Translations under genes and position numbers: made by a program
In this document: positions 5,121-48,822 of the stretch, piece by piece
How the letters are laid out: every line of letters starts with the position of its first letter
How positions within the stretch are numbered: the stretch's first letter is position 1
Assembly (NCBI RefSeq): GCF_000003815.2
Contig: NC_049995.1
Span: 3,278,788 to 3,342,787, forward strand
Direction: 5' to 3'
Source: Branchiostoma floridae
Lineage: Eukaryota > Chordata > Leptocardii > Amphioxiformes > Branchiostomatidae
DNA length: 64,000 nucleotides
The notes under the pieces: model-generated
The model's database searches: none
Told to the model about the DNA's origin: nothing
The model's input: only the letters and a program-made list of their open reading frames with translations

Positions 5121-6290
5121 AGAATGCCAGTTAGTTCGTTCGGAAGGGACCTTACAACCGTTGCAGATTCGCAACGTGGGCCGAGACGATACGAACAAAC
5201 ACAAACTTAAAAAAACGTTCTGCAAGTTCAAACATACTTTCGCCAAGAGTCCCTTAACAAACCTAATTTAACAATATGCGTAAGCCTGACTTGAATCCTC
5301 CTCTACCGAACCTAGCGCAGACTGAGACCGTCAAGAGACCTGGTGACCCGCGTTCAATGACCTCACTCGTACGACCCGGAAGTATATGATCGTAATCGGT
5401 TGCACGGAAACCCCCATGCAGTGCGAAATCGAGGCCGAAAACAAGCATAAAGAGCTAGTTTGAAGGCTAACTTTGACTCTTCAAATCTCATCCCGAAATA
5501 ATATTTGAATCAACACGAGTACTGTAGGCGATAGAACAACTCGTGGGGATTACGTGGGCACCTTTGACAGCCTGATTTGGGCCACCGCGATTTTTTAATC
5601 TTTTTTTTACGCGACCATGTCAAGTGCCTCAAACGGGCGTCCAACAAACATGGTGGCACTACTGCACGCTGATAAAAACAAAATAGGCTTTCTGCACTCG
5701 CAAACATGGAGAGTTGAAAAAAAAAATTATCTATTTCCACAGCCGCCCGTATGTAAGACCTGGCAACGAAGCATAGTATTTTGATTTTTATCAATTTAGT
5801 TCAGATAACCTGTTAAAGACTGAAAATCACAAAGAATTGAACCTTAGAGAGTTTAGTAAGACTATTTCCGTCGAACGCGAACCTTACCTCGTAACGCAAA
5901 AACACAAAGCTTCCTGGAGCCCAGATAACCAGATACTGCAGTGGAGAGTCTTAGCAGGCACCGGAATCGCATTCAGGGCTGTTTATATCGTCATTCTGGT
6001 TGCTTTATAGGCCGCAAGTAATGTCTGACGTGTGTGGCGTGTTTTGGCTTACTTCCTCATTGCTGAAAAATGCGGAAGTGAAACCCTCACAAAAGCGTCG
6101 CCTGGCGGTTTGTATCAAGTATGCATGTGTTGCAAGTGTACTTAATAATATGTACTCAAGTGTACTAATGTAAGATCACAACAATCTGGTTAAGTTGAAA
6201 TAGTATGCATCAGTACTTGTTCAAATTAGAACCCAACGATCGATGAAAAACTAGAAATTTTACCACCCCTTCTGTTGTGTGAATGTAACA
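5121..6290. other. Gene-free flank between satellite and locus A
   Basis: Starts with the second copy of the array boundary motif (5121-5158). The rest is unique-looking sequence with no convincing exon, tandem repeat or transposon end. Short open frames around 5263-5448 and 5510-5794 have no recognisable protein content. Confidence 0.5.
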
Positions 6291-6337
6291 AATATCCCAA
6301 AGGAGAATCCCCCTTCCCAGACGCCACTGCGTGACAG
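6290..6337 (+). other. Possible untranslated first exon ending at a strong donor
   Basis: The sequence GTGACAG|GTGAGT at 6331-6343 is a near-perfect splice donor 860 bp upstream of the first coding exon of locus A. An acceptor-like tract (TTCAACTCTTTTACAG) ends at 7124. A non-coding first exon joined to 7125 would carry the start codon at 7198. The exon start is not visible, so this is inference from splice signals only. Confidence 0.3.
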
Positions 6338-6349
6338 GTGAGTACACCT

Positions 6350-6359
6350 GGGGATTTCC
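6350..6359 (+). promoter_or_regulatory. NF-kappaB-type site
   Basis: GGGGATTTCC fits the GGGRNNYYCC consensus exactly. It sits 13 bases after the candidate donor at 6338 and just before two CRE-like cores (ACGTCA, TGACGT at about 6364-6378). Its position upstream of locus A makes it a candidate regulatory element; a single 10-bp match is weak alone. Confidence 0.3.
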
Positions 6360-7197
6360 GCATACGTCACATTGACGTGCGTTGGTAACGTTATTTTCAC
6401 CTGCGCCTGCTATCTGAACATGAACACTGCTTTTTTACGCCAACAAGGCTGCTATTATTCACTGCTGGTGGTACCGAGTGCAATGTGGACCCAGGATATT
6501 GTTGATGAATCCTTGTTTAACGTCCGATTCACTAGACGTTGTCTCTTGGTGCTTGTTTTCACTTGTTCCAGTTATGAGTCAAAAGTCTGTCTTGGTATTC
6601 AACTCCTGGTGACTTGAGCTTGAGTGTTTGCTGAAGTGTTTCTAGGAGAGAAAGACACAGGAAGACTACAAAGGTGTGTACATGACTTCATCTATTATGT
6701 ATGTGCTCTTAGTCTTGCAGGGGATTGGGGTATGTTTATTTGTTTTCAGTTTTGCATACCCGCTCCTGATATTTTTGTGGTGTACTGATGTGCACTTTGA
6801 ATTTACGTACTAGATGTGTGGATCTTCCCAAAACACTGGACCTCCATTCTATCAGAAGGACGTCCCTAACCGAAGCATTTACTCAAGAGTCAAGTGAGTA
6901 ATAAATCTGTGTTCACCACATGCCTCTAGATCTCCCAGGGGCACAAACAGATCTCCCAGGGAAAGTGCAAGTTGATACATAAACATAAAGGGGGGATTCC
7001 AGACAGGGGAAGTTGGCATTGGTACATTATTATTAAACAGTTCTGTGCCCATGTAAAATTTACAAATGACATATATTCCTGCCCTCCACCTTTCTCAAAG
7101 TGTTTTTCTTCAACTCTTTTACAGAAGAGCTTCAATACAAAATCGGACAGATTAAGAATTTCAATATTGCCGGAAAAAAGTAAGAAATTGGAGAAGT

Positions 7198-7938
7198 ATG
7201 GAAAGCCTGTCAGGAACAACAGGCATACAAATGACCATGTCCAGACTCTCAGATGTGGCTGAGGAACTTCGAGAATTGGATGTGATGTTTAACAGTGGAT
7301 TTGATCTGGATGTTGTGGAGAAAGGATTCGCACGTAAGCTGATCCATGCTATCAGTACTGAAGATGAAGTCTTGGAATGTGAGGCGTTGAAAAGTCTTGG
7401 CGATTTGTACTTGCGGAAAGCTAAGATGAAGGATCACAAGGCTGAGAATTTTAGTAAAGCATGTGGGCTGTACATAGATGTCCTGAGATATTGTAGAAGT
7501 GCAGATGAGAAACAAGTTATAGAACATCGTATTAAATATGCAGAGAAGTGTACTAAACTAAAATACTGTCAAAGTCACATGGAATCAGACATTGAGGTTT
7601 CAGATACCCACACACTGGCTGTGTCGATGGAGCTTCACAACTTGAAAAAGAAAACCAAGCTGAGGGGCTATGGTATAGTTCCCTTAATTGAAGCTTATAC
7701 CAAATACTTTGTAGCAGCAGTTGCTTGTACATGTAAATGTAAACACAAGGAAGTAGAATCCTTGAAGAGCATTGGAGACCTATATCTTGACAAGGGAAGG
7801 ATTGGCAGAAACAATGCAGCATTCAACAAAGCAGTCGGCCTATACCGAGCTGCAATGGACCGCTGTGACGATTCAGATGGCAGAGAAACGCTGGAGCACC
7901 GCATCGAGTACGCGGAGAAAGTCAAACGAAGAATGAAG
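7198..7938 (+). CDS. Locus A exon 1: helical repeat N-terminal region (247 residues)
   Basis: Open from an ATG with a good start context (A at -3, G at +4) to the donor AAG|GTATGA, ending in phase 0. An in-frame stop lies at 7153-7155, so this ATG is the earliest usable start unless an upstream exon is joined. The protein contains two copies of one helical module, each reading roughly LKSxGDLYLxKxx, then FxKAxGLYxxxxxxC, then LEHRIxYAEKxxK (residues about 62-122 and 180-245). This is TPR-like by appearance. No catalytic motif is present and I do not recognise a named family for this part. The same module returns at the start of exon 4, just ahead of the nucleotidyltransferase domain. The phase suits splicing to exon A2 at 8237 and equally to exon B1 at 17701. 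Confidence 0.8.
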
Positions 7939-8236
7939 GTATGACAGCTAAAAGCCATTTACAATTTCGTCAGTGATGTGGTTCTCGGTCTTTTTGTTCG
8001 TTTGTCTTGTTGTGTGCTTACAGTTCTATGATTGTCGGAATGAATTGATTTTTTTTAACTTAACAGTAGCATATCTTTCTCTCAAGGTCGTATTTTACAT
8101 AGTCATATTCATTATGCTCGATTCTCCAAGAAAACGATGCTTTGTATGAAGTGCGAACTTAACGTCAGGATATTGTGTTTTACCTTACAAACGCAGTGTG
8201 AAATGCGAAATCCATACCACTTTATTTTGTTTTCAG

Positions 8237-8331
8237 AAGCGACAAGAAGTTGGACAATCCAGGAACAACCTGGTAGTACAGGCCAGTGGACACATAGATA
8301 TCAATGGCAAACAACAGGAAGACACTGACAG
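8237..8331 (+). CDS. Locus A exon 2: polar linker
   Basis: Preceded by TTTGTTTTCAG and followed by GACAG|GTTGGT, a slightly poor donor. Read in phase 0 it gives 31 codons starting KRQEVGQSRNN and ends two bases into a codon. Exon B1 of the second locus starts KQQETKG in the same phase, which supports both the boundary and the frame. The segment is hydrophilic and carries no recognisable domain; it is a linker between the helical N-terminal region and the next helical exon. Confidence 0.7.
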
Positions 8332-8574
8332 GTTGGTGGACAGTTTTTTAATTCTAACTTGAAACCTCAGGTCTAATTTGAAGGAACGAATTGGTTGTAA
8401 TGATAGCTCATGTCTGATATAGTTAGATACAAATTATGTAAATTGAGGCTTGAATTTTTTTTAAAAAGACGGAATTTTACAGTTCTTGTATTTGATATTA
8501 TGGGAATTTCATTTATTGTAATATATGGTGGGCAGAAAATTGCTAGATATCAATTACTCTATGATCTGCTACAG

Positions 8575-8681
8575 TGACTACATGGAAGAGCTGCAAGAGG
8601 GGTGCAGGGCCCTGCAGACAGGGGACCTGGATGCTGCGGAACAACACTTTGCAGCTGCGCTTAAGGCCGTTCATGTGAAAG
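8575..8681 (+). CDS. Locus A exon 3: helical hairpin
   Basis: Bounded by GATCTGCTACAG and AAAG|GTGAGA. Encodes [17 protein letters not shown] and then an A-rich helix ([13 protein letters not shown]), a typical TPR helix pair. The exon is 107 nt, exactly the size of its counterpart at 19295-19401, with about two thirds of residues shared. The entering phase (one base) and leaving phase (one base) fit exons 2 and 4. Confidence 0.8.
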
Positions 8682-9107
8682 GTGAGACAAGATGCCTTAA
8701 ATATTCACATTTCATTGAAATTATAATTATAATTATAATTTTGTTCTTGTGCTCTTTTGAAATTCTAGCTAAGAAATGTACTGTTGTGTTTTCAATGTAT
8801 CTAAATACCAATAGGCAATACAGCACAATCACAGGCAAAACGCACATGATAAATTACCTACAATGCATAAGTAACCCAGGGCCAGGGTTTCACTATAAAA
8901 TAGTCTTTTCCACTGTGATTGACCACCCTAGCAATGTAAACCAGAAATGAAATAATAAATAAACCCACAAAATTGTCTGTATATTTTTAAGACTTTATTT
9001 TGACATAGTGCGTTCCAGGTTAGCACCGATTCATAACATGAAAATGAATTAAAATAAGATAACCTTTGATAACCCAAATCTGATTTGTCATTCAGATTCA
9101 ACTACAG

Positions 9108-12100
9108 ATGAATACAAAGAAGAGGCGGAGCCACTGTGCAAGTTGAGTGACGTTTACCTGGAAAAAGGAATCCAGTCGAAAGACGGAAGTGACTTCAATG
9201 CAGCACTGGTAAGAGCAAAAATAGAGGATAGGGAGGGCATCAAACAAATGATCCTAAGAGTTAGTCAGTTATTTCTTGAGCATGTATTGATGGTAGATAA
9301 TGTAGTGGACATTGGCGACTCAGGAATTCAGAAGTCCATATTGAAGAAAGATCGAAAGTACATAGAAGAAGAAATGAAACGAATCGACCAAGAGGTCGAC
9401 CCTTATACCATTGATGACGACGACCCAACGATTAGAGAAGTGGAGAAGGAGAGAGCGGAAGCAATCAAAGTATTGTTTCAGGCAATTGTTCAGCAGCGAA
9501 AAACGTTCATAGCTGGCCTTGTAGATGAATGTATTGAAGCCATGGGCCCACCTCCCTGTAAGTACGCAATTATAGGTTTGGGCTCACAGGCCACAGGATT
9601 GGTAATCCCATACTCTGACCTGGAGTTTGCTATTTTGGTAGAGGATGAAACCAAGCAAAATGTGAAGTATTTCCGCAACCTCACTCATTACCTGCATCTC
9701 AAAGTGATCAATCTGGGAGAGACCATTCTACCAGCCATGGGGATTAAGTCTCTGAATGATTTCTACTCAGATGATCCAATGGAAAACTGGTACTATGACT
9801 CTGTTACACCGCGTGGGTTTGCGTTCGACGGAGCCATGCCGCTTGCATGCAAAACTCCACTGGGCAGACGAACAAGTGAGCTCATTCACACACCTAGCGG
9901 TATGATCAGTGTTCTAAAAGACGACATTACCCTGCATTTAAAGAAAGGCTACCATCTTGCTAGTGTACTGGGCAATGTGTCTCTGATCACAGGAGAACAG
10001 GGCTTGGTCGAAGAGTACATGTCGTTATGGAATCAGCAAATGAAAGAAAATAATGGAACAATTCATTTTCTAACGGTAATAACTATGCTGATTGAAAATC
10101 AACCAACGTTTGTTATTAAAGATCTAACTGCAAACCTGATGAATGTAAAGAAAGAAATTTATAGATTTTCAAGCCTTGCCTTGACTTGTTTGGCGCTACT
10201 TCATAACAAACAACCCAAAACTATCTGGGAGACTATTCAGGAGCTGTTAAACGATGGGGTTGTCAATAGTGAAAACGCACATCACTTGATGGTGATGGTC
10301 AGTATCTCAGCAGAACTGAGGCTGCGGACATACATGAACAATGGTGGGCAGGTGGAAAACTTGTCAGCTATGTCGTCAATGTCGACGAATACAGATATTG
10401 CGACAAGATTGAAGAAAGTGTTTTACTTCTCAAATAGAAAGCAGCTCATGAGATACTATTACACAGCACGGCCGCTAAAGCAATGCATTTCCCAGATAAG
10501 AGACGGCAGGGTACAAAAAGTACACGCAATATTCTTTGACAACTCTTCAGAACTAAAAGCAGAGATCTACGAAAGCTTGTGTGATTACGAAAGTTATAAG
10601 ACGTGCACAGAGCAAACGCTTCAAAAGTACCTATCAAAATATGGTGAGCACACTGCACATGTTAATACTGCTAAGGCACTTGTTGAGTTGGGAAACGCAT
10701 GTAACAAACTTGGTAATCACAGAAAGGCTATTAGTTATTATGAACGGTCACTGCAAATAGAACGCCGTATTTATGGCGAATACACTGCACATCTAAGCAT
10801 TGGCTCCACACGTAGCAACTTGGGAGTCGCTTGGAGTAACCTCGGTGATCACAGAAAGGCAATCAGCTATTATCAACAGTCACTACGGATGAAGCGGAGT
10901 ATCTATGGTGCGGACACTGCACATCCTGACATAGCCTTATCACTTAACAACTTGGGTGCTGTCTGGAGCGACCTTGGTGATCATAGAAGGGGGATCTGCT
11001 ATTATGAACAGTCACTACAGATGAGGCGGAGTATCTATGGTAAGGACACTGCACATTCTGACATAGCCGACTCATTTATCAACTTAGGTAACGCATGGGG
11101 CGACCTTGGTGATTACAAAATGGCGATCATCTATTATGAACAGTCACTACAAATGATGCGGAGTATCTATGGTGAACGCACTGCACATCCTCACATAGCC
11201 TACTCATTAAACAACTTGGGTATTTCCTGGAGTGGCCTTAGGGGTTACAGAAAGGCAATCAGCTATCATGAACAGTCACTACAGATGAGGCGAAGTATCT
11301 ACGGTGAGGACACTGCACATCCTGACATAGCCTCCTCACTTAACAACTTGGGTACCACCTGGAGCAACCTTGGTGATCACAGAAAGGCGACCAGCTATTA
11401 TGAACTATCATCAGAGATGAGGCGGAGTATCTATGCTGAAGATACTGAACATCCTGAAATAGCAGGCTCACTTAACAACTTGGGTACCGCCTGGAGCAAC
11501 CTTGGTAATCATAATAAGGCGATCAGCTATCATGAACAGTCACTACAGATGCAGCGAAGTATCTATGGTGAGGTCACGGCACACCCTGAAATAGCCGTCT
11601 CACTTCACAACTTGGGTTCCACCTGGATAAACCTTGGTGATTACCAAAAGGCGATCAGCTATTATGAACAGTCACTACAGATGAGGCGAAGTATCTACTC
11701 TGAAGACACTGCACATCCTGACATAGCCGACTCACTTAACAACTTAGGTAACACATGGAGCGAGCTTGGTGATTACGAAAAGGCGATCAGCTATTATGAA
11801 CAGTCATTACAATTGATGCGGAGTATCTATGCTGAAGACACTGCACATCCTTATATAGCTTACTCATTTAACAACTTGGGTATTGCCTGGAGTGGCCTTA
11901 GGGGTTACAGAAAGGCAATCAGCTATTATAAACAGTCACTACAGATGAGGCGGGCTATCTATGGTGAGGACACTGCACATCCTGACATAGCCGACTCACT
12001 TAACAACTTGGGTACCGCCTGGAGCAACCTTGGTGATCACAGAAAGGCGATCAGCTATTATGAACAGTCGCTACAGATGGAGCGGAGTATCTATGTTGAG

Positions 12101-14460
12101 GACACTGCACATCCTGACATAGCCTTATCACTTATAACTTGGGTAAGGCCTGGAGTGGCCTTGGGGGTTACAGAAAGGCAATCAGTTATTATGAACAGTC
12201 ACTACAGATGAGGCGGAATATCTATGGTGAGGACACTGCACATCCTGACATAGCATCCTCACTTAACGACTTGGGTAATACCTGGAGCAACCTTGGTGAT
12301 CACAGAAAGGCGATCAGCTATTATGAACGGTCATTAGAGATGAGGCGGAGTATCTATGCTGAAGACACTGAACATCCTGACATAGCCGACTCACTTAACA
12401 ACTTAGGTAACGCCTGGAGTAACCTTGGTGATCACAGAAAGGCGATCAACCAGCATGAACAGTCACTACAGATGAGGTGGAGTATCTATGGTATGGACAC
12501 TGCACATCCTGACATAGCCAACTCACTTAACAACTTGGGTACCACCTGGAGCGACCTTGGTGATCACAGAAAGGCGATCAGCTATTATGAACAGTCACTA
12601 CAGATGAGGCGGAGTATCTATGGTGAGGGCGCAGCGCATCTTGACATTGCCTCCTGTCTTAGTAACTTGGGTACTGCCTGGAGTGGCCTTGGTGATCACA
12701 GAAAGGCGATCAGCTATCATGAACAGTCACTACAGATGATGTGGAGTATGTATGGCCAGGGTACTGCACATCCTGGCATAGCCTCCTCACTAAACAACTT
12801 GGGGCTCGCCTTGAGTGGCCTTGGTGATCACATAAAGGCGATCGTCTATTATGAAGAGTCACTACAGATGATGAACACTATCCATGGTGAAGACACAGCA
12901 CATACTAACATAGCCTCCCCACTTAACAACTTAGGTAAGGCCTGGAGTAAACTTGGTGATAACAGAAAGGCGATCAGCCATTTCGAACAGTCACTACAGA
13001 TGAGGCGACGTATCTATGGTGAGGACACTGCACATTCTGACATAGTCGCCTCACTTAGCAACTTGGGTGAAGCCATGTGTCACCTTGGTGACCACAGAAA
13101 GGCGATCAGCTATTATGAAGAGTCACTACATATAAGCCGGAGTATCTATGGTGAGGGCACTGCAAATCCTGACATAGTCAAGTCACTTAACAACTTGGGT
13201 GCTGTCTGGAGCGACCTTGGTGATCACAGAAAGGCGGCCATCTATCTTCAACAGTCACTACAGATGGAGCGGAATATCTATGGCGAGGACACTGCACATC
13301 CTGACATAGCCTTCTCACTTAACAACTTGGGTAACGCCTTGAGTGATCTTGGTGAACACAGAAAGGCGATCAGCTGTCATGAAGAGTCACTACAGATGAT
13401 GCGGAGTATCTATGGTGAGGACACTGCACATCCTGACTTAGCCGGGTCACTTAACAACTTGGGTATCGCCTGCAGCGACCTTGGTGATCAGAGAAAGGCA
13501 ATCAGCTACCATGAACAGTCACTACAGATGATGCGGAGTATCTATGGTGAGGGCACTGCACATTGTGACGTAGCCAAATCGCTTAACAACTTGGGTGCTG
13601 TCTGGAAAACCCTTGGTGATTACAGAAAGGCGATCGGCTATTTTGAAGAGTCACTACAGATGAGACAGCGTATCTATGGTGAGGGCACTGCACATTGTGA
13701 TGTAGCCGACTCACTTAATAACTTGGGTGCTGTCTGGAGCGATCTTGGTGATCACAGAAAGGTGATCAGCTATCTTGAAAAGTCACTACAGATGAAGCGG
13801 ACTATCTATGGTGAGGACACTGTACATCGATATCCTGACATAGCCAACTCACTTTGCAATTTGGGTAATGCCTGGAGCAACCTTGGTGATCACAGAAAGG
13901 CGATCAACTATCATGAACAGTCACTACAGATGAAGCGGAGTATCTATGGTGAGAATAATGCTCATTCCGACATAGCTGGCTCACTTAACAACTTGGGTGC
14001 CGAATGGAGCGACATTGGTGATCACAGAAAGGCGACCGGCTATTATGAACAGTCACTACAGATGTGGCGGAGTATCTATGGTGAGGGCACTGCACATCCT
14101 GACATAGCCGTCTCACTTAACAACTTGGGTACCGCCTGGAGTGACCTTGGTGATCACAGAAAGGCGACCGGCTATTATGAACAGTCACTACAGATGTGGC
14201 GGAGTATCTATGGTGAGGACACTGCACATCCTGACATAGCCTTCTCACTTAACAACTTGGGTGCCAACTGGAGTAGACTTGGTGATCACAGAAAGGCATT
14301 CAGCTATTATGAACAGGCACTACAGATGAGGCGAGCTATCTTAAGTGAGGACACTGCGCATCCTGAGATAGTCTCCTTACTTAACAACTTGGTTGTAGCT
14401 TGGAGGAAATTTTGTGATCAAAGAAAGGCGATCACGTTTCTGAACAGTCACTACAGTTAA
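9108..14460 (+). CDS. Locus A exon 4: GlnD/DUF294-like nucleotidyltransferase plus ~29 TPR repeats, frameshifted
   Basis: Acceptor ACTACAG just before 9108, aligned with the acceptor of the paralogue; 9096 is an alternative in the same phase. After a helical stretch and an acidic segment (DDDDPT), the sequence [20 protein letters not shown] at about 9569-9628 matches the nucleotidyltransferase-fold signature: GS, ten residues, then DLE, whose D and E would bind metal. GFAFDGAMP downstream may supply the third acidic residue. From about 10640 follow 44-residue TPR-like repeats (consensus around [20 protein letters not shown]), 28 complete and one partial, to a stop after FLNSHYS. One base is missing near 12133, so the continuous frame stops at 12211; the second frame runs on with perfect periodicity to 14460. 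If the break is real, the product loses 17 repeats. Length and repeats suggest a cytoplasmic scaffold with an enzymatic head. The nucleotidyltransferase assignment is firm by motif; substrate and role are unknown. Confidence 0.85.
12131..12140 (+). other. One-base deletion (frameshift) in TPR repeat 12 of locus A
   Basis: Other repeats read CTTAACAACTTGGG at this point; here the sequence is CTTATAACTTGGG, one base shorter, at the two-asparagine position of the repeat. Frame 2 ends 24 codons later and frame 1 takes over without any loss of the 132-bp register. It could be a recent inactivating change, a population variant or an assembly error. Confidence 0.85.
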
Positions 14461-14892
14461 GTGTCTATGGTGCCTTTTGCCAATTGTGAGAACACCCTGA
14501 CATTACGAGCCCATTTATCAAGTTGGGTTGCACATGGAGTAAAACCTTCGTGATCAAATTAAGGCAATCGTGTTTTCTTGCTCTTTCGAAAAAAGATGGT
14601 AAAAACCTAGGATGAGTAATTGATAGCAACGTTCTAAATTCATTCTGTATATGAATGATGGCTACCTCTTTTGTAGTCTCTTTCAGTTACAAATCATTTG
14701 TAAATATTGCTGAAATGTGGAATTTATATCCTTTTTTACGGTACTCAGGGTATTATATAGTGGACAGTGCATTTGTACTGATTTTCATTGTGACCGAGTA
14801 TATATATTTTTATCAACAATACCACAGATAATGAATAATACTTGGTTAGCGAATGTTCACTGTATATATATACATACATATATATATATATA

Positions 14893-14960
<68 letters not shown>

Positions 14961-15500
14961 GCAATTTTCTTGTAGGTGACACACTACTAGACCAGAAATG
15001 TGCAAACTCACAAAGGACAAATATACTGATGTATGTCATGATCATGTCATCTAAAAAGAACGATGTGAATGAAGAACTATATATTTGTCTACATAATGTT
15101 TTAAGAAGAGACAAAAGATTGCAGCTAAAGATGGAAAATAACATAATTTTTTCTCTTATCATGCATTTATGTTATGTCGGACATTGATATGCCATTAAGT
15201 CCTTTGCCATGATTGTAATTAAATTCATCTATCTAGATCAACAACGTTGTTCTTCCAGGGTGTTGATTATTACTGCCAATTGTGTACATTACTTTGAAAA
15301 CACGTGAATGCATTTCATATTAGCAAATACGTACATTGTAAAGTTCCCCAGTTAAGTCATTGTCATGAAATACCACCACTTTATGTACACTACTTTCCAC
15401 AACTGCAAATGATATCAAACAACCCGCTTTTGTATTAAAGACATTTTCATCTTGTCAGAGTTAAAAACATTTCGTATCTTGATGATAAGATCAAACAGAC
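14461..15500 (+). other. 3' flank of locus A, duplicated downstream of locus B
   Basis: The sequence after the stop codon (starting GTGTCTATGGTGCC) matches the region after the locus B stop at 23758, including GTGAGAACACCCTGACATT, CATTGTGACCGAGTAT and a GTAGGTGACACACTACTAG segment. The homology runs for about 1 kb. The duplication therefore covered the gene together with its 3' UTR and flank. No coding content is seen. Confidence 0.75.
14862..14955. repeat. (TA)n and (GA)n microsatellite
   Basis: Alternating TA dinucleotides pass directly into a GA run. The matching position after locus B has only a short TA tract, now next to a transposon insertion. Confidence 0.95.
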
Positions 15501-15925
15501 AGCACATTTTGTATGGTATAAATTTACCAGTACTATTTGTACTGGATAGTAGAGAAATGTGTTTGTTTTTCACATGAACCGGATTACGATGTTTGATGAC
15601 GTAAATTTGAACTTGAATACTGTTCCCGCCAAAATCTTTACGTTGCAATTGGCTGCAGTTGACATGACCTCCGCTGAGCGTCAAATAAAAGAGGGCTTTG
15701 AAAGGAAATGAGCAGGCGAACTAGAGTTAATTCTCACATTCTCACATTCTGTAGTCTGTATCTTGAACTCAACCATATTCGATTTTGGTACCTTAATTGT
15801 ACACCCTATTGTAAATTTTGAAGCGTCAAAGATTCTAAATTTGGGGTCCTTGACCATGTCAATTCCGGTCCTATAGGCGAAATCACTGTGTTCTGCTTCC
15901 TCTGCTAGCCTTCATGTAGCCTGGT

Positions 15926-15973
15926 ATCCTACCGTATTACAGAAGAGATCCGAGAGCTATAATACGGTTGGAT
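15926..15973. repeat. Hairpin repeat, 14-bp arms
   Basis: ATCCTACCGTATTA at 15926-15939 pairs with TAATACGGTTGGAT at 15960-15973 with one mismatch around a 20-base loop. CTAGCCTTCA occurs just outside on both sides (about 15905 and 15982), which may be a target duplication of a very small fold-back element. Confidence 0.55.
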
Positions 15974-16215
15974 AACAGTCTAGCCTTCAAGACCCTAGAC
16001 TAATCGAAAGAAGGTTGATAATGAGAAATGACATTGTTGTGGGTGTATTACATTATGTTCGTATTACTACAAGGAGACATTTTACCTAACATAAGATATA
16101 AACAGCTTTGGGAAAGTCCGACAAGTGCAGACCAGGAGGCAAGGACAGGGCGACGGCTACCGTCATGGCAATAGGCCTGGCCTCATTCACAGATGTGTGT
16201 ACCATAGGTCTAGCA

Positions 16216-16227
16216 GGGGGGGGGGGG
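16216..16227. repeat. Poly-G tract
   Basis: Twelve consecutive G bases; low-complexity tract. Confidence 0.9.
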
Positions 16228-16473
16228 AGACGTTTCAGCACATAATGACTAGGTGTAATTGTGGCACACTCTCTCAATTATAGAAAACGAATAAGACAGT
16301 TATTCCTTCTTTATCTGACAAGACACTTCCACCCATTAAACATGCTTGATTGAATAAGGGCATATCTAGTAGGGAAAGTGTATGATCATAAAGTCAGGGG
16401 GAAACCCCCAAAAGGGGAATTCCATGACTAGTTGGTAAGTCCACTAACGTCGACCGCGTGACTGTATTTTTTT

Positions 16474-16502
16474 GCATTTTGCGACTTGCAGTCGCAAAAT
16501 GC
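16474..16502. repeat. Perfect 13-bp hairpin
   Basis: GCATTTTGCGACT and AGTCGCAAAATGC pair perfectly around a 3-base loop. The flanks are unremarkable. Function unknown. Confidence 0.7.
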
Positions 16503-16613
16503 CTTCTGGCCAGTGTAGTCGCCGTTGTGATGTTGTGATGTTGAGATGAACGGACCTGTTCAATCCATGCCAAACATTTGTATACCTGTTAAAACAGGCA
16601 TTTCTTCAACATG

Positions 16614-16683
16614 TTCGCACTAGCGCAGTGGTAAAGTTTACGCATTCTAAACCAATGCACCCGGTTCGAATCCGGGGAGGTAG
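16614..16683 (+). other. tRNA-like sequence or SINE head
   Basis: A-box-like TAGCGCAGTGG at 16621-16631 and a perfect B box GGTTCGAATCC at 16663-16673. The T arm (CCCGG/CCGGG) and anticodon stem (GCATT/AATGC, loop CTAAACC) pair, but the acceptor strands do not and the variable loop is only one base. T-rich sequence follows. It is not a working tRNA gene; a decayed tRNA or a tRNA-derived SINE promoter is more likely. Confidence 0.6.
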
Positions 16684-16744
16684 ATTTTTTTCAACTTTTT
16701 TTTCTTTTTTACATCCATTAAAATACTAATTTTTACATCCATTT

Positions 16745-16783
16745 GGCCACACCAATTTATTTCTTTGGTTAACGGATTCGCCG
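16745..16783. mobile_element. Solitary end of GGCCACACC-type PIF/Harbinger-like MITE
   Basis: Matches the terminal inverted repeat of the elements at 35606-35959 and 37929-38377 (GGCCACACCAATTT, then TTGGTTAACGGATTCG). No partner end is found nearby, so this is a fragment. Confidence 0.6.
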
Positions 16784-17700
16784 CTTCGTTTTTTTGCCGA
16801 ATAGAAATAAAAATAAAAAAAAAAAAACTTAAAAATGCCCCGCAACAGAGCTCACTCAAAAACAGGCAATGTGTAGTGAAATTTGCTGCAGTTCACGCAA
16901 ATTTTAACAGGTGGCGTCTAGATCTGCTGCAGTTCAGGCACATATGTGAATCTCTCCATGCGCCAATATCAGGTTTAGTTATTCTGTTCTATTCATATGA
17001 CATTCTAATAACTAGAAAAAAACGTTCACACACGCAAACATTGGCAAAATGCCAGCTTTTTTAAAAGCACTTGTTACCAATACAGCTAAGATCTTGACAT
17101 TATTCATGTAGGGTACAGCCACTATTATAAAACGATAACTGCAGTCGCTATCGAGCTGACCTGTGGCGCCCGATGGGTCAGTTGGGACGCTGGGACAAAC
17201 ACCGAAAACACCGAATCAAAAAGTAAAAGAAAGCACAAGACAGCAAATGGAGGTAGGATACGGATATATTATTCTGTGCCATTGTACAATTCATACGGAA
17301 AACAGACACAAAGACACGTCCCAAATCAACATTTCCATTTTTTTATGAAGGCAATAAGGTTTTGCCTTTCTTTCCATTTGTTTGTTTGAGTTTGGATTTG
17401 CTGATGGTTATGTATTACTTGTACTATGTACATATCCTGTCACAGCCCATTATACAAGTCATGACTTGGTTTGCATATTAGATTATGAAATTTCAAAAAT
17501 CCAATTAATATTTATTGCACTTTTAGTCATGGGCCACGTGATTAACCACCGAGCAAAACTCATAGAATATACATTATTGCGAAAAGGGTTTTCATAAACA
17601 TTGTTGAGGATTGCTATAGATGTAGACTCTACATTTGTGAATTTTGTATCAGAATTCAGGTGTGCGTTTATTATCAATTTGTACCATACGTTTATCAAAG

Positions 17701-17819
17701 AAGCAACAGGAAACGAAAGGACCAGGGAAAAGGAAAGGTGGTGATGACAACAGACTCACCTCTCCTCCCACAAAACGTCAGGCAATCTGTGACGTCACCA
17801 ACCAGGGAATCAAGACTGG
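17701..17819 (+). CDS. Locus B exon 1 (visible): basic linker
   Basis: Begins after TTTATCAAAG and ends at CTGG|GTAAGT. Read in phase 0 it gives KQQETKGPGKRKGGDDNR and then a T/P-rich stretch ending NQGIKTG, leaving two bases, which matches exon B2. The start resembles exon A2 (KRQEVGQ). The acceptor is atypical (AAG), so the 5' boundary is less certain than the donor. There is no in-frame ATG in or just before it, so an upstream exon is required. Confidence 0.6.
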
Positions 17820-18073
17820 GTAAGTAATATGTAGACTTGATACATCACGACGACAAAACAGATGTAAGTTAATAGCTAAATAGAGTTCTGTGATCGCGAA
17901 TATCTGCATTTTCTGTCTTATTATGCATATACAGCATTCGTTAAGAAAGGCTTCGCGCCCTTACTACTCAATATTTTATCATCGAAAGTTTACCACGTTG
18001 GGAAATCGCAGTAAGATTAACTGCTTCACAGAAAAAGCATCATCGTTTTATGCTTTGCATCAGAACATATAAT

Positions 18074-18533
18074 TAGGGCTGGGTATCGGTACAGTGTACC
18101 GGTACAAAACCGGTTTTTCTTATTGGACCGGTCCAGAAAAACCGGACCTGAAAAAATTAGGCGGACCGGATATTGGACCGATTAGAAAATTAACAGATTA
18201 TTTTATCAGGCATTCACACGTTTTGGCGCTTGCAGGTGGAAGAAAATAACAAGAGTGAAGTAGTGTAGAGTTTATCTATAGTAGTAATTTCTACCAAGGA
18301 TTACAGTCAATCGTACAGTTGTAGTTAGCGTTGTAGGATTCTGAAACGCCAGTGTAAGTCTAATACCCCACCAAACAGATTTCTTTGTATTCTAGTGAAA
18401 TGGACCATTGGTATGAGTCATACTGAATCAGGTCCAGGTTAAATAAATAAAGGTTCAGGTCCGGACCTGGACCTGATCCTTTGGACCTGAACCGGACCTG
18501 GACTTGAATTTTCTGTACCGGTACCCACCCCTA
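18074..18533. mobile_element. hAT-like MITE, copy 1, with perfect 8-bp TSD
   Basis: Ends TAGGGCTGGGTATCGGTACAG and CTGTACCGGTACCCACCCCTA are imperfect inverted repeats, and CATATAAT flanks both sides (18066-18073 and 18534-18541). The interior is rich in ACCGGT/GGACCTG inverted motifs. The 8-bp duplication points to the hAT superfamily. It has no coding capacity. It lies in the intron of locus B, 140 bp before exon B2. Confidence 0.9.
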
Positions 18534-18673
18534 CATATAATCCATTTGATATGGATCCAGTCTACAGAACCACATATATCATCAAGACGTAATGCATATA
18601 AAGTACATAAACGATTAAGTATCACATATTCTTATCAACACTTCGGGGGTAACAGTGACTTGTTTCCTTACAG

Positions 18674-18751
18674 AACGACGGTTGGAGAATGCAGCTCTAG
18701 TACTAGACCAGTAAGCAGCACTGACAAAACAGAGGAAAACACTGATGACAG
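18674..18751 (+). CDS. Locus B exon 2: linker
   Basis: Flanked by TTTCCTTACAG and GACAG|GTATGT, both good signals. After completing the shared codon it reads TTVGECSSSTRPVSSTDKTE and ends in an acidic stretch two bases into a codon. The ending resembles exon A2 (ending DTD plus two bases). Together B1 and B2 correspond to the single exon A2. Hydrophilic linker with no domain. Confidence 0.7.
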
Positions 18752-19294
18752 GTATGTCCATTACTTACATTCGTTTTGAATTAAAGGAAGGTATTAAAGG
18801 AAACTATAAATGTACATACGGCTGGCTTACAATGTATATATAAACTTGCTGTGATCACGATACTGCTGTTTACTTTTAATCCAATATCTTCATAAATGAA
18901 AATACGTATACATTCTGGAAGGAGATAACCCCTACAGTGTACAAATAGGCAAACAATGTTTAGAATTCATAGCATGCGTCATTTTATAGTTGTCTCCAAG
19001 TTAATTGACTCATATAGTCTTGTTTGTTTGTATGTATGTATAGATGTACTTGGTCTTACGACAGTCGCTGTATTTCTGTTGTTTCAATAAATTTTGCTGT
19101 TGAATAACGCCATAAAATAGTAAAAGAATTTTCACTAAATGCACTTTGGTTGTAATCAATTTATCTAGCACTATTTCGATGTTTCCTGAAATAGGGCTCA
19201 CTGCTCAGTGAGATGTATCAACATGTCAGTCGTATCATGTTGACAAGAGTATGGAATACTTTAACGTTAAGATTATGCAACATACATTTTACAG

Positions 19295-19401
19295 TATATA
19301 TAAAGAACACCTACAGGAGGGCTGCAGGGCCCTGCAGACAGGAGACCTGGACACGGCAGAACACAGCTTTGCAGCTGCGCTCAAGAGTGTACATAATAAA
19401 G
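19295..19401 (+). CDS. Locus B exon 3: helical hairpin
   Basis: Flanked by CATTTTACAG and AAAG|GTAAGT. It is 107 nt, the same as exon A3, and encodes a matching helix pair: [16 protein letters not shown] then [13 protein letters not shown]. Phases in and out are one base each, as in locus A. Confidence 0.85.
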
Positions 19402-19841
19402 GTAAGTTTTTATAATGTATTTATCCAACACATTGCCAAAGTATTGTAAGACACTATATTCTTTAATACTAACAATACTGAAAGTGATATCTTATATAGA
19501 TATATTTGACGTGTGTATAGGTATATGTTTCGAGCTCTATGTTTTTTGTGTGCAAAACTTGGGGTCGCTCTGAATGAAGAAATGTCATTCTCAACAATAG
19601 ATGCGGCTTAAACAACATGTATATGAGTAATGGTGTCACTGTAACAAAGTTACAGGATATTTAGCAATCCTTAATTGTCATTGATGTTAGAATGATGCAC
19701 ACAAGGACACGAAAAAATATAATTGAGATGAGATTTGGCGTATTCGGATGCTCTGCATACATTAACTGCTAGAATTATGTATTGCAAAAAAGATTTAGTA
19801 TCAAAAAGTATCAATTTTCTAAAATGCTACTTTTGTGACAG

Positions 19842-22800
19842 GCCAGCACACAAAAGAGGCAGAGCCGCTGTACCAGTTGGGTGACGTCTATCTGAAGAGA
19901 GGAATCCAGTCAAAAGAGGGGGGTGATTTCACCAAGGCTGCTGCACTCTGTAACGCAGCACTGGTAAGAGCAAAAATTGAGGATAGAGAGGGCATTAAAC
20001 AAATGATCCTAAGAATCAACCAGTTATTCATTAAGCATGTAATGAAGACAGCAAAAGTCATGGACATGGGTGACACAGAGAAACACAAATCAATATTGAA
20101 GAAAGATAGAGAGTATGTAGAAGAAGAAATGAAACGAATAGAACAAGAGATAGATCCTTATTCCCTTGATGACGACGACCCAGAGATAACAGAAGTGGAG
20201 AAGAAGAGAGCGGAAGCAATCAAAGTTTTGTTACAGACAATTGTCCAACAGCGGAAAACGTTCTTGGCAGGCCTTGTAGATGAATGTATTGAGGTTATGG
20301 GTCCACCTCCCTGTAAGTACGCCATGATAGGTTTGGGTTCACAGGCCACAGGGTTGGTAACCCCATACTCTGATCTGGAGTTCGCCATTTTGGTAGAGGA
20401 TGAAACAGAGCATAATGTTAAGTATTTCCGCTACCTCACTCATTACCTGCATCTCAAAGTGATCAATCTGGGAGAGACCATTCTCCCAGCCATGGCGATT
20501 AAGTGTCTGAATGATTTCTACTCAGACGACCCGCTAGAAAACTGGTTCTATGACTCTGTAACACCGCGAGGGTTTGCGTTCGATGGAGCCATGCCGCATG
20601 CATGCAAAACTCCACTGGGCAGAGGAACAAGTGAACTTATTCACACAACAAGCAATATGATCAATGTTCTGAAAGACGACCTGACGTTGTATTTAAAGAA
20701 AGGCTACCACCTTGCTACTGTACTTGGAAATGTGGCATTGATCAAAGGAGACAAGCGCTTGGTAGATGAGTACAGGTCGTTATGGAGCCGTCAGCATGAA
20801 GAAAATGATGGAATATTTTCATCTCAAGAGGCAATTACTATGCTGAGTGAAAATGCACAAATGTTTCAAGAGCAATATCTAACTGGCAATCTGTTGAATG
20901 TAAAGAAAGAGATATATCGATTTTCAAGCCTTGCTGTGTCTTGTTGGGCGCTACTTCATAACATACAACCTACCACAATCTGGGAGACTATTCAGGAGCT
21001 GCAAAACGGTGGGTTTGTGAATGGTGACAACGCACATCACCTGGTGGTGATGGTCAGTATCTCAGCAGAACTGAGGCTGCGGACATACATGAACAATGGT
21101 GGGCAGGTGGAAAACTTGTCAGCTTTACCGCCAATGTCGACAAATACAGACATTGGGGCGAAATTGAAGAAAGTGTTTTACTTCTCAAATAGAAATCAGC
21201 TAATGAGATATTATTACACTGCCATGCCATTAAAGCACTTCATTTCAAAGCTGAACGACAGTGGGCCACAGAAAGAGCAGTCCATGTTGTTTGACAACTC
21301 TTCAGAACTAAAGGTAGAGATATACGAAAGTTTGTGTGATTACGAAAATTCTAGGAACTGGGCAGAGCAAGCACTTAATAAAAATCTTTCAAAACATGGT
21401 GAGCACACTGCACATGTTGAAATTGGCAATTCACTTGCTAACCTGGGTCAGGCTTGGACAAGCCTTGGTAATAATGGAAACGCTGTTATTTATCTTGAAC
21501 AATCTCTACAGATGTTGCGCCGTATCTATGGTGAGGACAATGCACATCTTGACATAGCCGACACACTTACTAAGTTGGGTACCGCATGGAGGTACCTTGG
21601 TGATCACAGAAAGGCAATCGAATATTATGAACAATCACTACAGATGAGGCGAAGTACCTATGGTAAGGGCACTGCATATCCTGACAGAGCCGACACACTT
21701 AACAACATGGGTATCACCTGGAGCGACCTTGGTGATTACAGAAAGGCGATTAGCTATTATGAACAGGCACTACAGATGAATCGGAGTATCTATGGTGAGG
21801 GCGATGTACATCATGGCATAGCCAACATATTTAACAACTTGGGCCTCGCCTGGAGTGACCTTGGTGATCACAGAAAGGCAATCGTCTATTATAAACAGTC
21901 ACTAAAGATAATGCGGAGTATCTATGGTGAAAATACGGCACATCCTGACATAGCAGGATCACTTAACAACTTGGGTAACGTCTTTGGGAGCCTTGGTGAT
22001 CACAAAAAGGCAATCGACTTTTATGAACAGTCACTACAAATGAATCGTCATATATATGGTGATGGCACTGAGCATCCCGACATAGCTATGTCACACAACA
22101 ACTTGGGTAACGCATGGAGCGAATTTGGTGATCAAAAAAAGGCAATCCATTATTATGAACAGTCACTACAGATAACGCGAGGTATCTATGGTGAGGACAC
22201 TGCACATCCTGACATAGCCAACTCACTTAACAACTTGGGTAACGCATGGAGTGGCCTTGGCGATCTCAGAAAGGCGATCAGCTATTATGAACAATCACTA
22301 GAGATGTATCGGAGTATCTATGGTGAGGGCACTGCACATCCTGACGTAGCAATGTCACTTAACAACCTTGGTGCCACTTGGAGCAACCTTGGTAATTACA
22401 GAAAGGCAATTGGCTATTATGAACAGTCACTACAGATAAAGCAAAGTATCTTTGGTAAGGACACCGAACATCCTGACATATCCGCGTCACTTAACAACTT
22501 GGGTAACGCCTGGAGTGACCTTGGTGATCACGGAAAGGCGATCAGCTATTATGAACAATCACTAGAGATGAATCAGAGTATCTATGCTGAGGACACTGCA
22601 CATCCTGACGTAGCTGTGAACCTGGACAACTTGGGTGCCGAATGGAGCCATTTTGGTGATCATAGAAAGGCGATCGACTATTATGAACAATCGTTACAGA
22701 TGAGGCGGAGTGTCTATGGTGAGGATACTGCACATCCTGACATAGCCGGTTCACTTAACAACTTGGGTAACGCATGGAGTGACCTTGGTGATCACAGAAA

Positions 22801-23758
22801 GGCAATTAAGAATTACGAACAGTCACTTCAGATGAATCAAAGTGTATATGGTGAGGACACTGCACATCCTGACATAGCCTCCTTAATTAGCAACTTGGGT
22901 ACCTCCTGGAGCGACCTCGGTGATCACAGAAAGACGATCGGCTATTATGAACAGTCACTACAGATGATGCGTCGTATCTATGATGAGGACACTGCACATC
23001 CTCGCATAGCCGACATGCTTTATAACTTGGGTTCCGCCTGGAACGACCTTGGTGATCACAGAAACGCTATCGGCTATTACGAGCAGTCACTACAGATGAG
23101 GCGCGTTATCCATGGTGAGGACACAGCACATCCTGACATAGCCGACTCACTTAACAACTTGGGTGTCGCCTGGAGTAAGCTTGGTGATTGTAGAAAGGAG
23201 ATCGACTATTATGAACAATCATTACAGATCAGGCGGAGTATCTATGGTGAGGACACTGCACATCCTGATATAGCCTCCTTATTTAACAACTTGGGTAACG
23301 CCTGGAGTACATTTGGTGATCACAAGAAGGCGATCAGCTATCATGAACAATCACTACAGGTGAAGCGAAGTACCTATAGTGAGGACACTGCACATGCTGA
23401 TATAGCCGACTCACTGAACAACTTGGGTACAATCTGGAGTCACCTTGGTGATCATAAAAAGGCTATCAGCTATCATGAACAATCACTACAGATGAAGCGA
23501 AGTACTTATGGTGATGACACTGCACATCCTGACATAGCCGACTCACTTAACAACTTGGGTGAAGCCTGGGGTTACCTTGGTGATCACAGAAAGGCGATAG
23601 GTTATTTTGAACAGGCATTACAGATGAGGCGAGCTATCTTTAGTGAGGACACTGGACATCCTGACATAGCCGACTCACTTAACAAGTTAATTGTCGCTCG
23701 GAGGAACCTTGGTGATCACAGAAAGGCGATCACGTTTTTGAACAGTCACTACAGATAA
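19842..23758 (+). CDS. Locus B exon 4: GlnD/DUF294-like nucleotidyltransferase plus 18 TPR repeats, intact
   Basis: Acceptor TTTTGTGACAG. One open frame of 3917 nt runs to TAA at 23756-23758. It begins with the helical module [10 protein letters not shown] and [20 protein letters not shown], then an acidic DDDDPE segment, then [20 protein letters not shown] (about 20326-20385). That is the nucleotidyltransferase signature with both acidic residues present, followed by GFAFDGAMP (about 20572-20598). The TPR array starts near 21390: 17 full 44-residue units and a partial last unit ending FLNSHYR. Unlike locus A it has no frameshift, and it keeps about 8 residues in the pre-catalytic helix that A has lost. 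Joined to B1-B3 and to exon A1 the total is 4962 nt, exactly 1654 codons. Known family logic: such NTase domains transfer nucleotides to proteins or small molecules, and TPRs bind partners. What this one modifies cannot be read from the sequence. Confidence 0.92.
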
Positions 23759-25050
23759 GTGTCTACCCTATGGTGCCTATTGCCAATTGTGAGAACACCC
23801 TGACATTGCGAGCTCAATAAGTAACTATTCACATTATCTATATATTACTAATGGCTACCTCTTTTACTTAAGGATAGCATCTTTTAGTTACAAATATGTT
23901 ATAAATATTTCAGATGACATACTTGAAAAAGATTGCTGAAATGTGCAATTTGTATCTTTTTTTTACTGTACTTAGGGTATTGCATGCTGGACAATGCAAT
24001 TTTACTGATTTTCATTGTGACCGAGTATGTATTTTTTATCAACAATACCACAGATAAGAATTAATACTTGGTTAGCGAATGTTCACTATATACAGGGTTC
24101 TACCCAGAACTTTTTAGTATAGTGGAGGGGCTGGCAAAAATAACCCGCACCAACGCGCTGCACTTTCATGAAAATGGGTTCATTTTGCAATGACAGAGGG
24201 GGTCAAATACTACAAATATAATATACTGTTGTTATTCCTTTGTTGTGAAGTGGCAAAACTACTATTGTTTTGATCATTGCTCATTCACAAGTTTTTGCAG
24301 ACAATACTGACTGGAAAAGTGATGCCACTTGGTACAAAAATCTGTGAATTGTCATTAATCTTAGCAAAACTAACAAAGAAAATAGGGAAGAAACACACTA
24401 AATTTGAAAAATAGTATAGTGGAGCTGGCTGAGAGTATAGTGGAGGGCCTCCCTTATTCCACTCTCTGGGGAGAACCCTGATATATATACATAGGAATGC
24501 GTAGTTTTCTTGTAGGTGACACACTACTAGACCAGAAATGTACAAACTTTAATACAACAGACAAAATATTGACCTATATCATGTCATCTGAAAAAGAACG
24601 ATGTAAATAGAGAACTCCATATTTGTCTACATATGTTTTAAGAAGAGACAATAGATTTAAGCCAAAGATGGATGATATTATTGTCTTATTTGCATTTAGC
24701 CCATATTGGACATTTATATGCCATAAAGTCCCTTGCCATTGTAACTATCTATCTTAATCATACCGCTGCTCTTCTAGGGCGTTAATTATTACTGCCGACT
24801 GTGTTCATTACTTGTGAAGGCATTTTATATTAGCAGATAAGTAATTTGTAAAGTTCCCCAATGAAGTCATTGTCATTAAATAACCCAATTTTATTCACAC
24901 TACCTTCCACAACTGTAAATTATATAAAACGACATGTTTTGTATCAATAACAATTTTAACTCTTCAGAATTAAGAACAATCCGTATCTTTATGATAAGAG
25001 CAGTACAAGAAGATAAGAACAGACAGTACATTTTGTATGGTATAAGATTT
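23759..25050 (+). other. 3' flank of locus B, duplicated from locus A
   Basis: Homologous to 14461-15500, interrupted by a MITE at 24093-24480. No coding content is seen. Confidence 0.7.
24093..24480. mobile_element. CAGGGTTC-ended MITE (hAT-like)
   Basis: Ends CAGGGTTCTACCCAGA and TCTCTGGGGAGAACCCTG are inverted repeats. The interior contains repeated AGTATAGTGGAG segments and no open frame. It is absent from the matching position after locus A, so it inserted after the duplication. The target is AT-rich and the target duplication cannot be fixed. Confidence 0.75.
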
Positions 25051-26760: not shown

Positions 26761-26895
26761 GAGAGCGAAGCACTTGTTATGGTGCAGGTCTGGCGTGACC
26801 ACGTATTCTGCCGTGATTCCTCTTTAGAGGCTAAAACGTGCGTCAGATAGTGACTAAGCGGCGTATTTTGGACGCTTTCACCTGAGGGGAAGAAT

Positions 26896-26919
26896 ATGTC
26901 TTGGTCAGGGAAGCGATAG
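26896..26919 (+). other. Short upstream ORF in the 5' UTR
   Basis: ATG at 26896 with A at -3 opens a seven-codon frame ending in TAG, 38 bases before the main start. It could reduce translation of the main frame. Confidence 0.5.
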
Positions 26920-26957
26920 GGGTGTTTCTGACAGGAAAGAAAGCCAGGGATGCGAAT

Positions 26958-27533
26958 ATGGGGTCGGGGTCCAGCAAGAAAACGTCGGAAGACAAACCAC
27001 AGGGAGGCGTCAAGGGGCACGTGCAAAACGGCAAAACCAGGAAAACCATCCCGCAAGACCACGGGAGAGAAGACGGGAAGGAAAGAGGCGGTGAGAAACG
27101 ACAGAAACGGGACTCGAGATCTCTGAGTGTTGGTGTTGGTGAAAATACTGGGAGGAAATCACCGTACTGGCAGACTGAGAGTGATTTTTCTGTGTCTAAA
27201 AACGTGGACGCTGAAGTGAATATTCTAACGGGAGAGCTGGACGAAGCGCTACGGGACAACAGGCAGTACACCGGCGGCAGGCAACCCGCCAACGCCCGGC
27301 AACAAAAACCGCACGCCGGGGACTCCAACAACCATCAGACTTCTAACAGCCTTGCCGTCAAGAATGACAGAAACGCTGGCCGAAGAGAGCCAAGCTTGAC
27401 TCCCGAGGGTAGAACTCGTATCTCCCCGAGGCTGGGGAAGGATCCCGACGGCACGGGAGACGACTCGGGGGTCGAAAACTACTCGCCCGAAATCGACCAC
27501 GAGATAGAAGACACCCTAGCGCCATCGTACCAG
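26958..27533 (+). CDS. CYS1: Cystin-like gene exon 1: myristoylated N-terminal region
   Basis: Starts at ATG 26958 (context AATATGG) and runs 192 codons to the donor CAG|GTGAGT in phase 0. The protein begins MGSGSSKKTSED. Glycine 2 and serine 6 with following lysines form a standard N-myristoylation signal and membrane anchor, and vertebrate cystin starts the same way (MGSGSS). The rest is hydrophilic and probably disordered, rich in K, R, G, D and N, apart from a short amphipathic stretch around ILTGELDEALRDNRQY (about residues 92-107) that may match the leucine-rich helix of cystin. Cystin is a cilium-associated lipidated protein whose loss causes polycystic kidney disease in the mouse cpk strain. 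The full coding sequence assembles from four exons to 282 residues, longer than the vertebrate protein of roughly 150-160. The extra length lies mainly in this exon. Confidence 0.8.
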
Positions 27534-48477: not shown

Positions 48478-48822
48478 AAGAAGCTCCATCTTAAGATTGG
48501 AATTCCGTTTTTCCCATTTTGAAATGTGCTAATATTTTCAATATAAAAGCACTTGGTGCAAAGTCTTTACATATGATTGACAAGTATGATGCACAGTTGT
48601 GAAATATGATAATAACTTTCATGAATATTCATTTTGAAAATTTTCTTCCTGCAGGAATTCCTGCAGGAATTCCTGCAGGAAGCGTTTTTCCTGCAGGAAT
48701 TCCTGCAGGAAGCGTTTTTCCTGCAGGAATGCTGCAGGCATTCCTGCAGAAATTCCTGCAGGAGAAAGGTAAATTCCTGCAGGAAGAATGTTTCCTGCAG
48801 GAATTTCTGCAGGAATGGCCTT
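48478..48822 (+). mobile_element. 345-bp palindrome-rich element, copy 1
   Basis: Begins AAGAAGCTCCATCTTAAG and ends AATGGCCTT. Its last ~170 bp is a tandem series of the palindrome TTCCTGCAGGAA and variants. A same-length inverted copy lies at 55494-55838. Open frames on both strands are repeat artefacts. Confidence 0.85.

Follow-up and report, generated by a model that had tools for sequence, protein, structure and literature searches.

Introduction

Proteins in which a DUF294 nucleotidyltransferase (NTase) domain is combined with tetratricopeptide repeats (TPRs) have been described in Neochlamydia, a genus of chlamydiae that live in amoebae, where members of the NEX2 family carry an F-box, an OTU domain in ten members, DUF294 and TPRs, and are regarded as putative effectors (Domman et al. 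2014, PMC4209131). In the sections of that report used here, NEX2 comprises 50 proteins under purifying selection, with a ratio of nonsynonymous to synonymous substitution rates (dN/dS) of 0.29; secretion was predicted for only two members, and a surrogate assay showed a type III secretion signal in the member or members tested. The motif of Pol-beta-type protein AMPylases is given as G-x11-[DE]-x-[DE] (PMC8097203) and that of MntA as GSx10DxD (PMC7641770), while DUF294_C has been grouped with the helical domains that accompany NTases of the GlnD/GlnE kind as fusions (PMC3710099). FICD, a metazoan AMPylase, recognizes its substrate through a TPR domain (PMC12409994). Here, two neighboring genes (genes 1 and 2) of the amphioxus Branchiostoma floridae are compared with these systems. 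They lie within a stretch of 64,000 nucleotides (contig NC_049995.1, positions 3,278,788 to 3,342,787, forward strand), called the window, to which all coordinates refer. Both loci belong to a large, lineage-expanded family whose members contain a DUF294-type NTase core, a DUF294_C-like region and a C-terminal array of 44-amino-acid TPR units.

Nucleotidyltransferase domain and its catalytic residues

A Pfam scan of the NTase regions of genes 1 and 2 detected DUF294 (PF03445) at 27.0 and 25.5 bits, above the curated cut-off of 21, followed by DUF294_C at 12.6 and 16.2 bits, below the cut-off of 22.5; NTP_transf_2 gave a weak match, also below its cut-off. For profile comparison by hhalign, a profile built from NTases of amphioxus (42) and Neochlamydia (10) was aligned with three bacterial DUF294 proteins and with one E. 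coli GlnD sequence. The comparison with the DUF294 proteins (a single one) gave a probability of 97.4% (E 1.2e-11) over 277 columns covering the NTase and the C-terminal helical domain, versus 23% for GlnD. A preliminary description of this DNA had reported two adjacent loci, each joining a "GlnD/DUF294-like" NTase to a TPR array, and had proposed a Pfam comparison with DUF294. The NTase homology is borne out by PF03445 in both loci and by the profile comparison, and both loci also contain a 132-base tandem array; of the double name, the DUF294 part stands and the GlnD part does not. GlnD identity was rejected for the two window proteins (profile against GlnD alone, probability 1.4), and the GlnD_UR_UTase, HD and ACT models were neither reported by Pfam for the NTase region nor present among the listed matches of the TPR part. 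The MntA antitoxin model of NCBIfam was likewise rejected at 14.6 and 16.5 bits, far under its cut-off of 60. Sequence searches of the PDB with the window proteins found no relative.

A six-frame search of the same genome revealed at least 109 copies (111 matches before merging, two rows being split pieces), so that the two loci of the preliminary description are not an isolated pair. Scores were obtained for 109 of 319 initial candidates, which makes this number a lower bound. The copies are 60-100% identical to the query, and the match is free of stops in 104 of them, five having a stop inside it. Seventy-eight copies are arranged in 17 same-strand clusters of up to 16 copies, and 31 are single.

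Catalytic residues were read in the 109 copies, namely the two window genes, 20 long loci, 20 whole NTase matches and 67 short core stretches. The GS-x10-DLE pattern is present in both window genes, as described before. GS was found in 106 of 109 copies, D-x-E in 108 and the candidate third Asp, within F(A/S)FDG or a similar stretch, in all 109. GS and D-x-E were assigned by pattern in 97 copies and by eye in 12, x being M or I in some, and the third Asp by pattern in 108 and by eye in one. The exceptions (L120, with GS masked by N; L122, with the frame broken before GS; L123, with an unreadable motif stretch) include no read substitution. Loss of the acidic residues in most paralogues, which the preliminary description had named as an outcome contrary to its view, is therefore not observed. 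All ten Neochlamydia NTases keep GS, D-x-E and the candidate third Asp. The spacing of the amphioxus GS-x10-D-x-E equals that of the Pol-beta-type AMPylase and MntA motifs. Pairwise dN/dS of the NTase had a median of 0.23 (range 0.14-0.34; 231 pairs, 22 genes), and the NTase core gave 0.19 between genes 1 and 2. From the conservation of these residues, a working enzyme, as suggested previously, is likely.

TPR arrays and their variable positions

The 132-base (44-amino-acid) unit is repeated 28.4 times at 10709-14456 (81% matches) and 17.1 times at 21496-23756 (78% matches), which agrees roughly with the earlier count of 18-29 repeats; each array follows an NTase region in the same open frame. 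The term "near-identical" was too strong, since the mean nucleotide identity of units within a gene is 0.777; between genes it is 0.757 (279 units of 22 genes, as in all unit analyses below, with gene 1 taken up to its premature stop). For 78 of the 279 units, the most similar unit belongs to the same gene, against an expectation of 4.6%, and homogenization of the units within genes is thus mild only. Among the 20 long paralogues (L016-L035), the number of units per gene ranges from 7 to 21. Pfam matches of the arrays include the nephrocystin-3 TPR model.

The most variable positions of the unit (TPR numbering), ranked by entropy, are 2, 9, 31, 12, 13 and 33. According to PMC1261162, in the part consulted, positions 2, 5, 9, 12, 13, 33 and 34 of TPRs are the most variable ones and contact ligands on the concave face. 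In the amphioxus units, these seven positions have a mean entropy of 2.46 bits versus 1.05 bits elsewhere in positions 1-34, a value matched by 17 sets among 100000 drawn at random; within the seven, entropy is lower at positions 5 and 34 (1.76 and 0.91 bits). Within genes, dN/dS is 1.5-1.8 at positions 2, 9, 13 and 33 and 0.37 at the remaining positions, and the six most variable positions together, which were chosen from the same data, give 1.12 (0.96-1.29). Conserved catalytic residues are thus combined with varying TPR positions, in agreement with the preliminary description.

Gene models

Borders and reading frames led to the following models, all on the + strand.

7198..7938, +, gene 1 exon A, N-terminal module of 247 amino acids (open reading frame and GT donor; TPR-like by eye)
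8237..8331, +, gene 1 exon B (AG/GT borders, frame kept)
8575..8681, +, gene 1 exon C, TPR-like by eye (AG/GT borders)
9096..12211, +, gene 1 exon D, NTase, DUF294_C-like region and initial TPR units, ending in a premature stop
12212..14460, +, gene 1, rest of the TPR array in another frame (open from 12118; open reading frame 12118-14460)
17247..17252, +, gene 2, tentative first exon ATG GAG (supported by the frame and a GT donor only)
17701..17819, +, gene 2 exon, contains the basic segment KRK...TKRQ (AG/GT borders, frame)
18674..18751, +, gene 2 exon (AG/GT borders, frame)
19295..19401, +, gene 2 exon C, homologous to 8575-8681 (borders and frame, similarity to gene 1)
19842..21397, +, gene 2 N-lobe, DUF294 NTase (PF03445; GS-x10-DLE, FAFDG with the candidate third Asp), DUF294_C-like region
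21398..23758, +, gene 2 TPR array (17 full 44-amino-acid units), C-terminus and stop

The bounds 7198 and 23758 given earlier for the region coincide with the ATG of the first exon of gene 1 and the end of the stop codon of gene 2. Gene 2 is a complete model of 1408 amino acids (17247-17252, tentative; 17701-17819; 18674-18751; 19295-19401; 19842-23758). In the splice-consistent model of gene 1 (7198-7938, 8237-8331, 8575-8681, 9096-12211), the protein up to the first stop has 1352 amino acids. A one-base frameshift lies within the TPR unit starting at 12095, where the first frame ends at 12211 and the next is open to 14460. This frameshift, which was absent from the preliminary description, represents either a null allele or an assembly error, the single assembly being compatible with both. 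The NTase exons of the two genes are tandem duplicates (80% over 9114-13004 versus 19848-23759), and the exon C segments are 78% identical (8585-8686 versus 19305-19406); by pattern, a segment resembling exon C lies upstream of 12 of 20 paralogues.

Exon A matched no Pfam family (E<=0.01) and has 220 matches in its own genome. Among those listed, 78 longer ones were examined; for 37 of them, an NTase of the list follows no more than 9 kb downstream. The idea that the N-terminal module is shared with other effector types finds no support so far: of the 41 unpaired copies, two (L126 and L127) were inspected, and both carry NTase-TPR genes. These genes are missing from the list, and 109 is therefore an undercount. 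L126 and L127, with an N-terminal module of the gene 1 type, perhaps represent a second subfamily; the TPR units of L127 are very uniform.

Several other features were observed in the window. Two arrays of a 90-base satellite (1-1540 and 2847-5001) have consensus units that, by eye, are mutual reverse complements. One palindromic minisatellite (TTCCTGCAGGAA) occurs at both 48646-48763 and 55553-55670. A 359-amino-acid open frame with a YADD motif (38561-39640) resembles, by eye, a piece of a reverse transcriptase, and open frames of 163 and 248 amino acids overlap on both strands in a GC-richer patch (26843-27632). A tRNA-like B-box stretch (GGTTCGAATCC) was noticed by eye at about 16610-16690, perhaps a short interspersed nuclear element; ARAGORN finds no tRNA there.

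Relationship to the chlamydial NEX2 family

Relatives were sought in prokaryotic and viral collections (genome contigs, viral contigs, phages and plasmids), and "closest" holds within these. No close relative was found in the genome contigs, viral contigs or phages, and PHROGs gave weak matches only (best E 0.023). Among plasmids, tblastn revealed a strong match to pS13 of Neochlamydia sp. S13 (11 places; 35.3% identity with 98% of the query covered; E 2e-46); the matches of the other nine plasmid records, seven of them annotated DUF294, were short and weak (E 0.007 to 7). Of 13 coding sequences taken from pS13, ten match across the NTase (E 3e-55 to 4e-47), two partly and one not. Two adjacent coding sequences of pS13 (L003:4372-5397 and 5510-8152) match successive parts of the NTase query and look like one broken family member. 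This "plasmid" carries rpsA, nusA, infB, murC/D/F/G and ftsW (L003-L007), and hence resembles a chromid or a chromosomal fragment.

The 42 amphioxus NTases share 30-37% identity (median 33.5) with the 10 of Neochlamydia, versus 15-21% (median 17.2) with the three bacterial DUF294 proteins. In a phylogenetic tree, the amphioxus (42), Neochlamydia (10) and DUF294 (3) sequences each form one clade, with support of 98/95, 98/83 and 100/100, respectively; the outgroup consists of these three proteins only, two of which are long-branched. In the N-terminal parts of three chlamydial proteins, Pfam detected DUF294 in all three and an F-box in two, and DUF294_C exceeded its cut-off in one (23.0 bits). 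SidM_N, the N-terminal AMPylase domain of SidM (PMC12409994), also exceeded its cut-off of 27 in one of the three Neochlamydia proteins scanned (33.6 bits). No F-box was found in exon A (Pfam, E<=0.01) or in 9116-10630 and 19823-21379 (E<=10), the short 5' exons of gene 2 lying outside the scan; as no F-box was detected, the amphioxus genes are considered NEX2 homologues, not members. On sequence comparison, the Neochlamydia NEX2 family is the closest homologue found.

Regarding the history of the family, which is compatible with any of the functional readings below, an exchange with chlamydiae, in which animals or other eukaryotes were either donor or recipient, is given an even chance. The higher identity to Neochlamydia than to the three DUF294 proteins, the single clades of amphioxus and Neochlamydia, and the common domain order with TPRs of similar period speak for an exchange. 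On the other side, the similarity could be old common inheritance via unsampled lineages, the relatives compared coming from non-eukaryotic collections, and the tree has the small, partly long-branched outgroup mentioned above.

Proposed function and alternative explanations

The family is best read as a repertoire of protein nucleotidyltransferases of the AMPylase/UMPylase type in which the TPR array would choose the substrate, a reading whose probability is judged to be about one half. It is the simplest one because of the AMPylase motif spacing, the DUF294_C-like region and the variable contact positions. The enzyme would transfer AMP or UMP from a nucleoside triphosphate to a hydroxyl group of a protein bound in the groove on the concave side of the TPR superhelix; paralogues would acquire different targets through duplication and point mutations of groove residues, and the catalytic core would stay fixed while the groove diversifies. 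The likeliest use of such a repertoire would be the recognition and modification of proteins, either those of intracellular microbes or the host proteins that these target, as suggested by the layout, the copy number and the chlamydial homology only. The putative defense role proposed in the preliminary description is plausible. Death, DED, CARD and TIR are not among the Pfam families listed for the window proteins, PADLOC gave no match for the NTase regions (E<=1), and the main text of a report on dispensable immune genes of amphioxus (PMC12373286) contains neither tetratricopeptide, TPR nor nucleotidyl-. A wider claim, that a chordate possesses well over 100 Pol-beta-type protein nucleotidyltransferases as a third class in addition to the two that a 2021 review counted among metazoan AMPylases, with diversifying TPR grooves, exchanged with intracellular chlamydiae (as a putative effector set) and used against intracellular invaders, is rather unlikely to hold in full.

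Several observations weigh against a repertoire of protein nucleotidyltransferases. The catalytic pair is D-x-E in amphioxus versus D-x-D in the three bacterial DUF294 proteins and GlnD, and changing both Asp residues of MntA to Glu abolished modification (PMC7641770); activity should therefore not be taken for granted. FAFDG falls in a gap of the hhalign alignment, and the next DUF294 strand pairs with a non-acidic stretch, leaving the third acid unplaced. SidM_N was not reported for the amphioxus NTase regions (Pfam, E<=10), and AlphaFold, run on the two window sequences as a two-sequence input, gave an unusable model (predicted local distance difference test, 31.7; predicted template modeling score, 0.21). 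Between genes 1 and 2, constraint is weaker in the DUF294_C-like region (dN/dS 0.45, with one 50-codon block at 1.15), and gene 1 is frameshifted. As for the groove, within-gene dN/dS is 0.37 at position 12, 0.21 at position 5 and 0.30 at position 34, the seven published contact positions together give 0.83 (0.72-0.94), and position 31 is variable yet absent from the published list. Moreover, groove positions vary in TPRs generally, so that their variability supports target recognition and not immunity as such.

The replacement of D-x-D by D-x-E and the unplaced third acid would also suit a pseudo-enzyme, in which the NTase fold would serve for binding and the protein as an adaptor, like other large animal TPR proteins, as would the nephrocystin-3 model among the TPR matches. 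A scaffold of this kind is improbable in view of the retention of GS (106 of 109 copies) and of D and E (108 of 109) in a family whose scored members are 60-100% identical to the query, and of the NTase dN/dS of 0.23. Equally improbable is a second-messenger synthase, in which a ligand bound in the TPR groove would activate the NTase to form a cyclic or linear oligonucleotide, as in cGAS-like receptors and CD-NTases. The sensor-plus-synthase layout and the shared Pol-beta superfamily motif are consistent with it; PADLOC, which presumably holds CD-NTase models, gave no match at E<=1, Pfam reported no cGAS or Mab21 model in the NTase region at E<=10, and the NTase is followed by a DUF294_C-like region, as in the GlnD/GlnE/DUF294 group (PMC3710099).

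The weak, sub-threshold NTP_transf_2 match would be in line with an NTase acting on RNA or a small molecule, with the TPR array serving only for localization; Pol-beta NTases include enzymes that modify such substrates. Here the best models are DUF294 and DUF294_C, and a simple localizer would need no variable groove positions, which makes this the least probable of the explanations considered. Among these readings, TPR-guided protein nucleotidylation is preferred, and the fixed catalytic core together with the variable TPR groove positions provides concrete residues for testing it. Similarly, the homology with a family of putative chlamydial effectors makes host-microbe exchange directly testable.

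Comparison with known systems

An animal DUF294-TPR family is not described among the literature matches listed, in a search that left most subscription journals, preprints and supplements outside, and none of the articles containing "DUF294", judged by title and opening abstract, is on animal DUF294 proteins. Like the amphioxus proteins, bacterial DUF294/DUF294_C proteins combine the NTase with a C-terminal helical domain (profile probability 97.4); the three compared (613-622 amino acids) have D-x-D instead of D-x-E. GlnD/GlnE and SidM/DrrA have the motif spacing G-x11-[DE]-x-[DE] in common with amphioxus, as given in the consulted part of PMC8097203, and GlnD shows a weak local match. They differ in their other accessory domains, no SidM_N match being reported in amphioxus and the GlnD probability being 23%. 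FICD resembles the amphioxus proteins by analogy only, through TPR-guided protein nucleotidylation (PMC12409994); its Fic domain has no similarity to the NTase fold. The TPR-CHAT and glycosyltransferase-TPR families of corals, as far as the consulted part of PMC12314368 describes them, are likewise large marine-invertebrate expansions that join a catalytic-type domain to TPRs of variable length, whereas their catalytic domains are different and the TPRs of TPR-CHAT are N-terminal, in contrast to the C-terminal arrays of amphioxus. NEX2 shares with the amphioxus genes a mid-protein DUF294 followed by C-terminal TPRs, the expansion into a family and two NTase sequence blocks, and is distinguished by the N-terminal F-box of most members, in place of which gene 1 has another N-terminal module, and by a TPR period of 42 amino acids (four of four chlamydial proteins examined) versus 44 in amphioxus.

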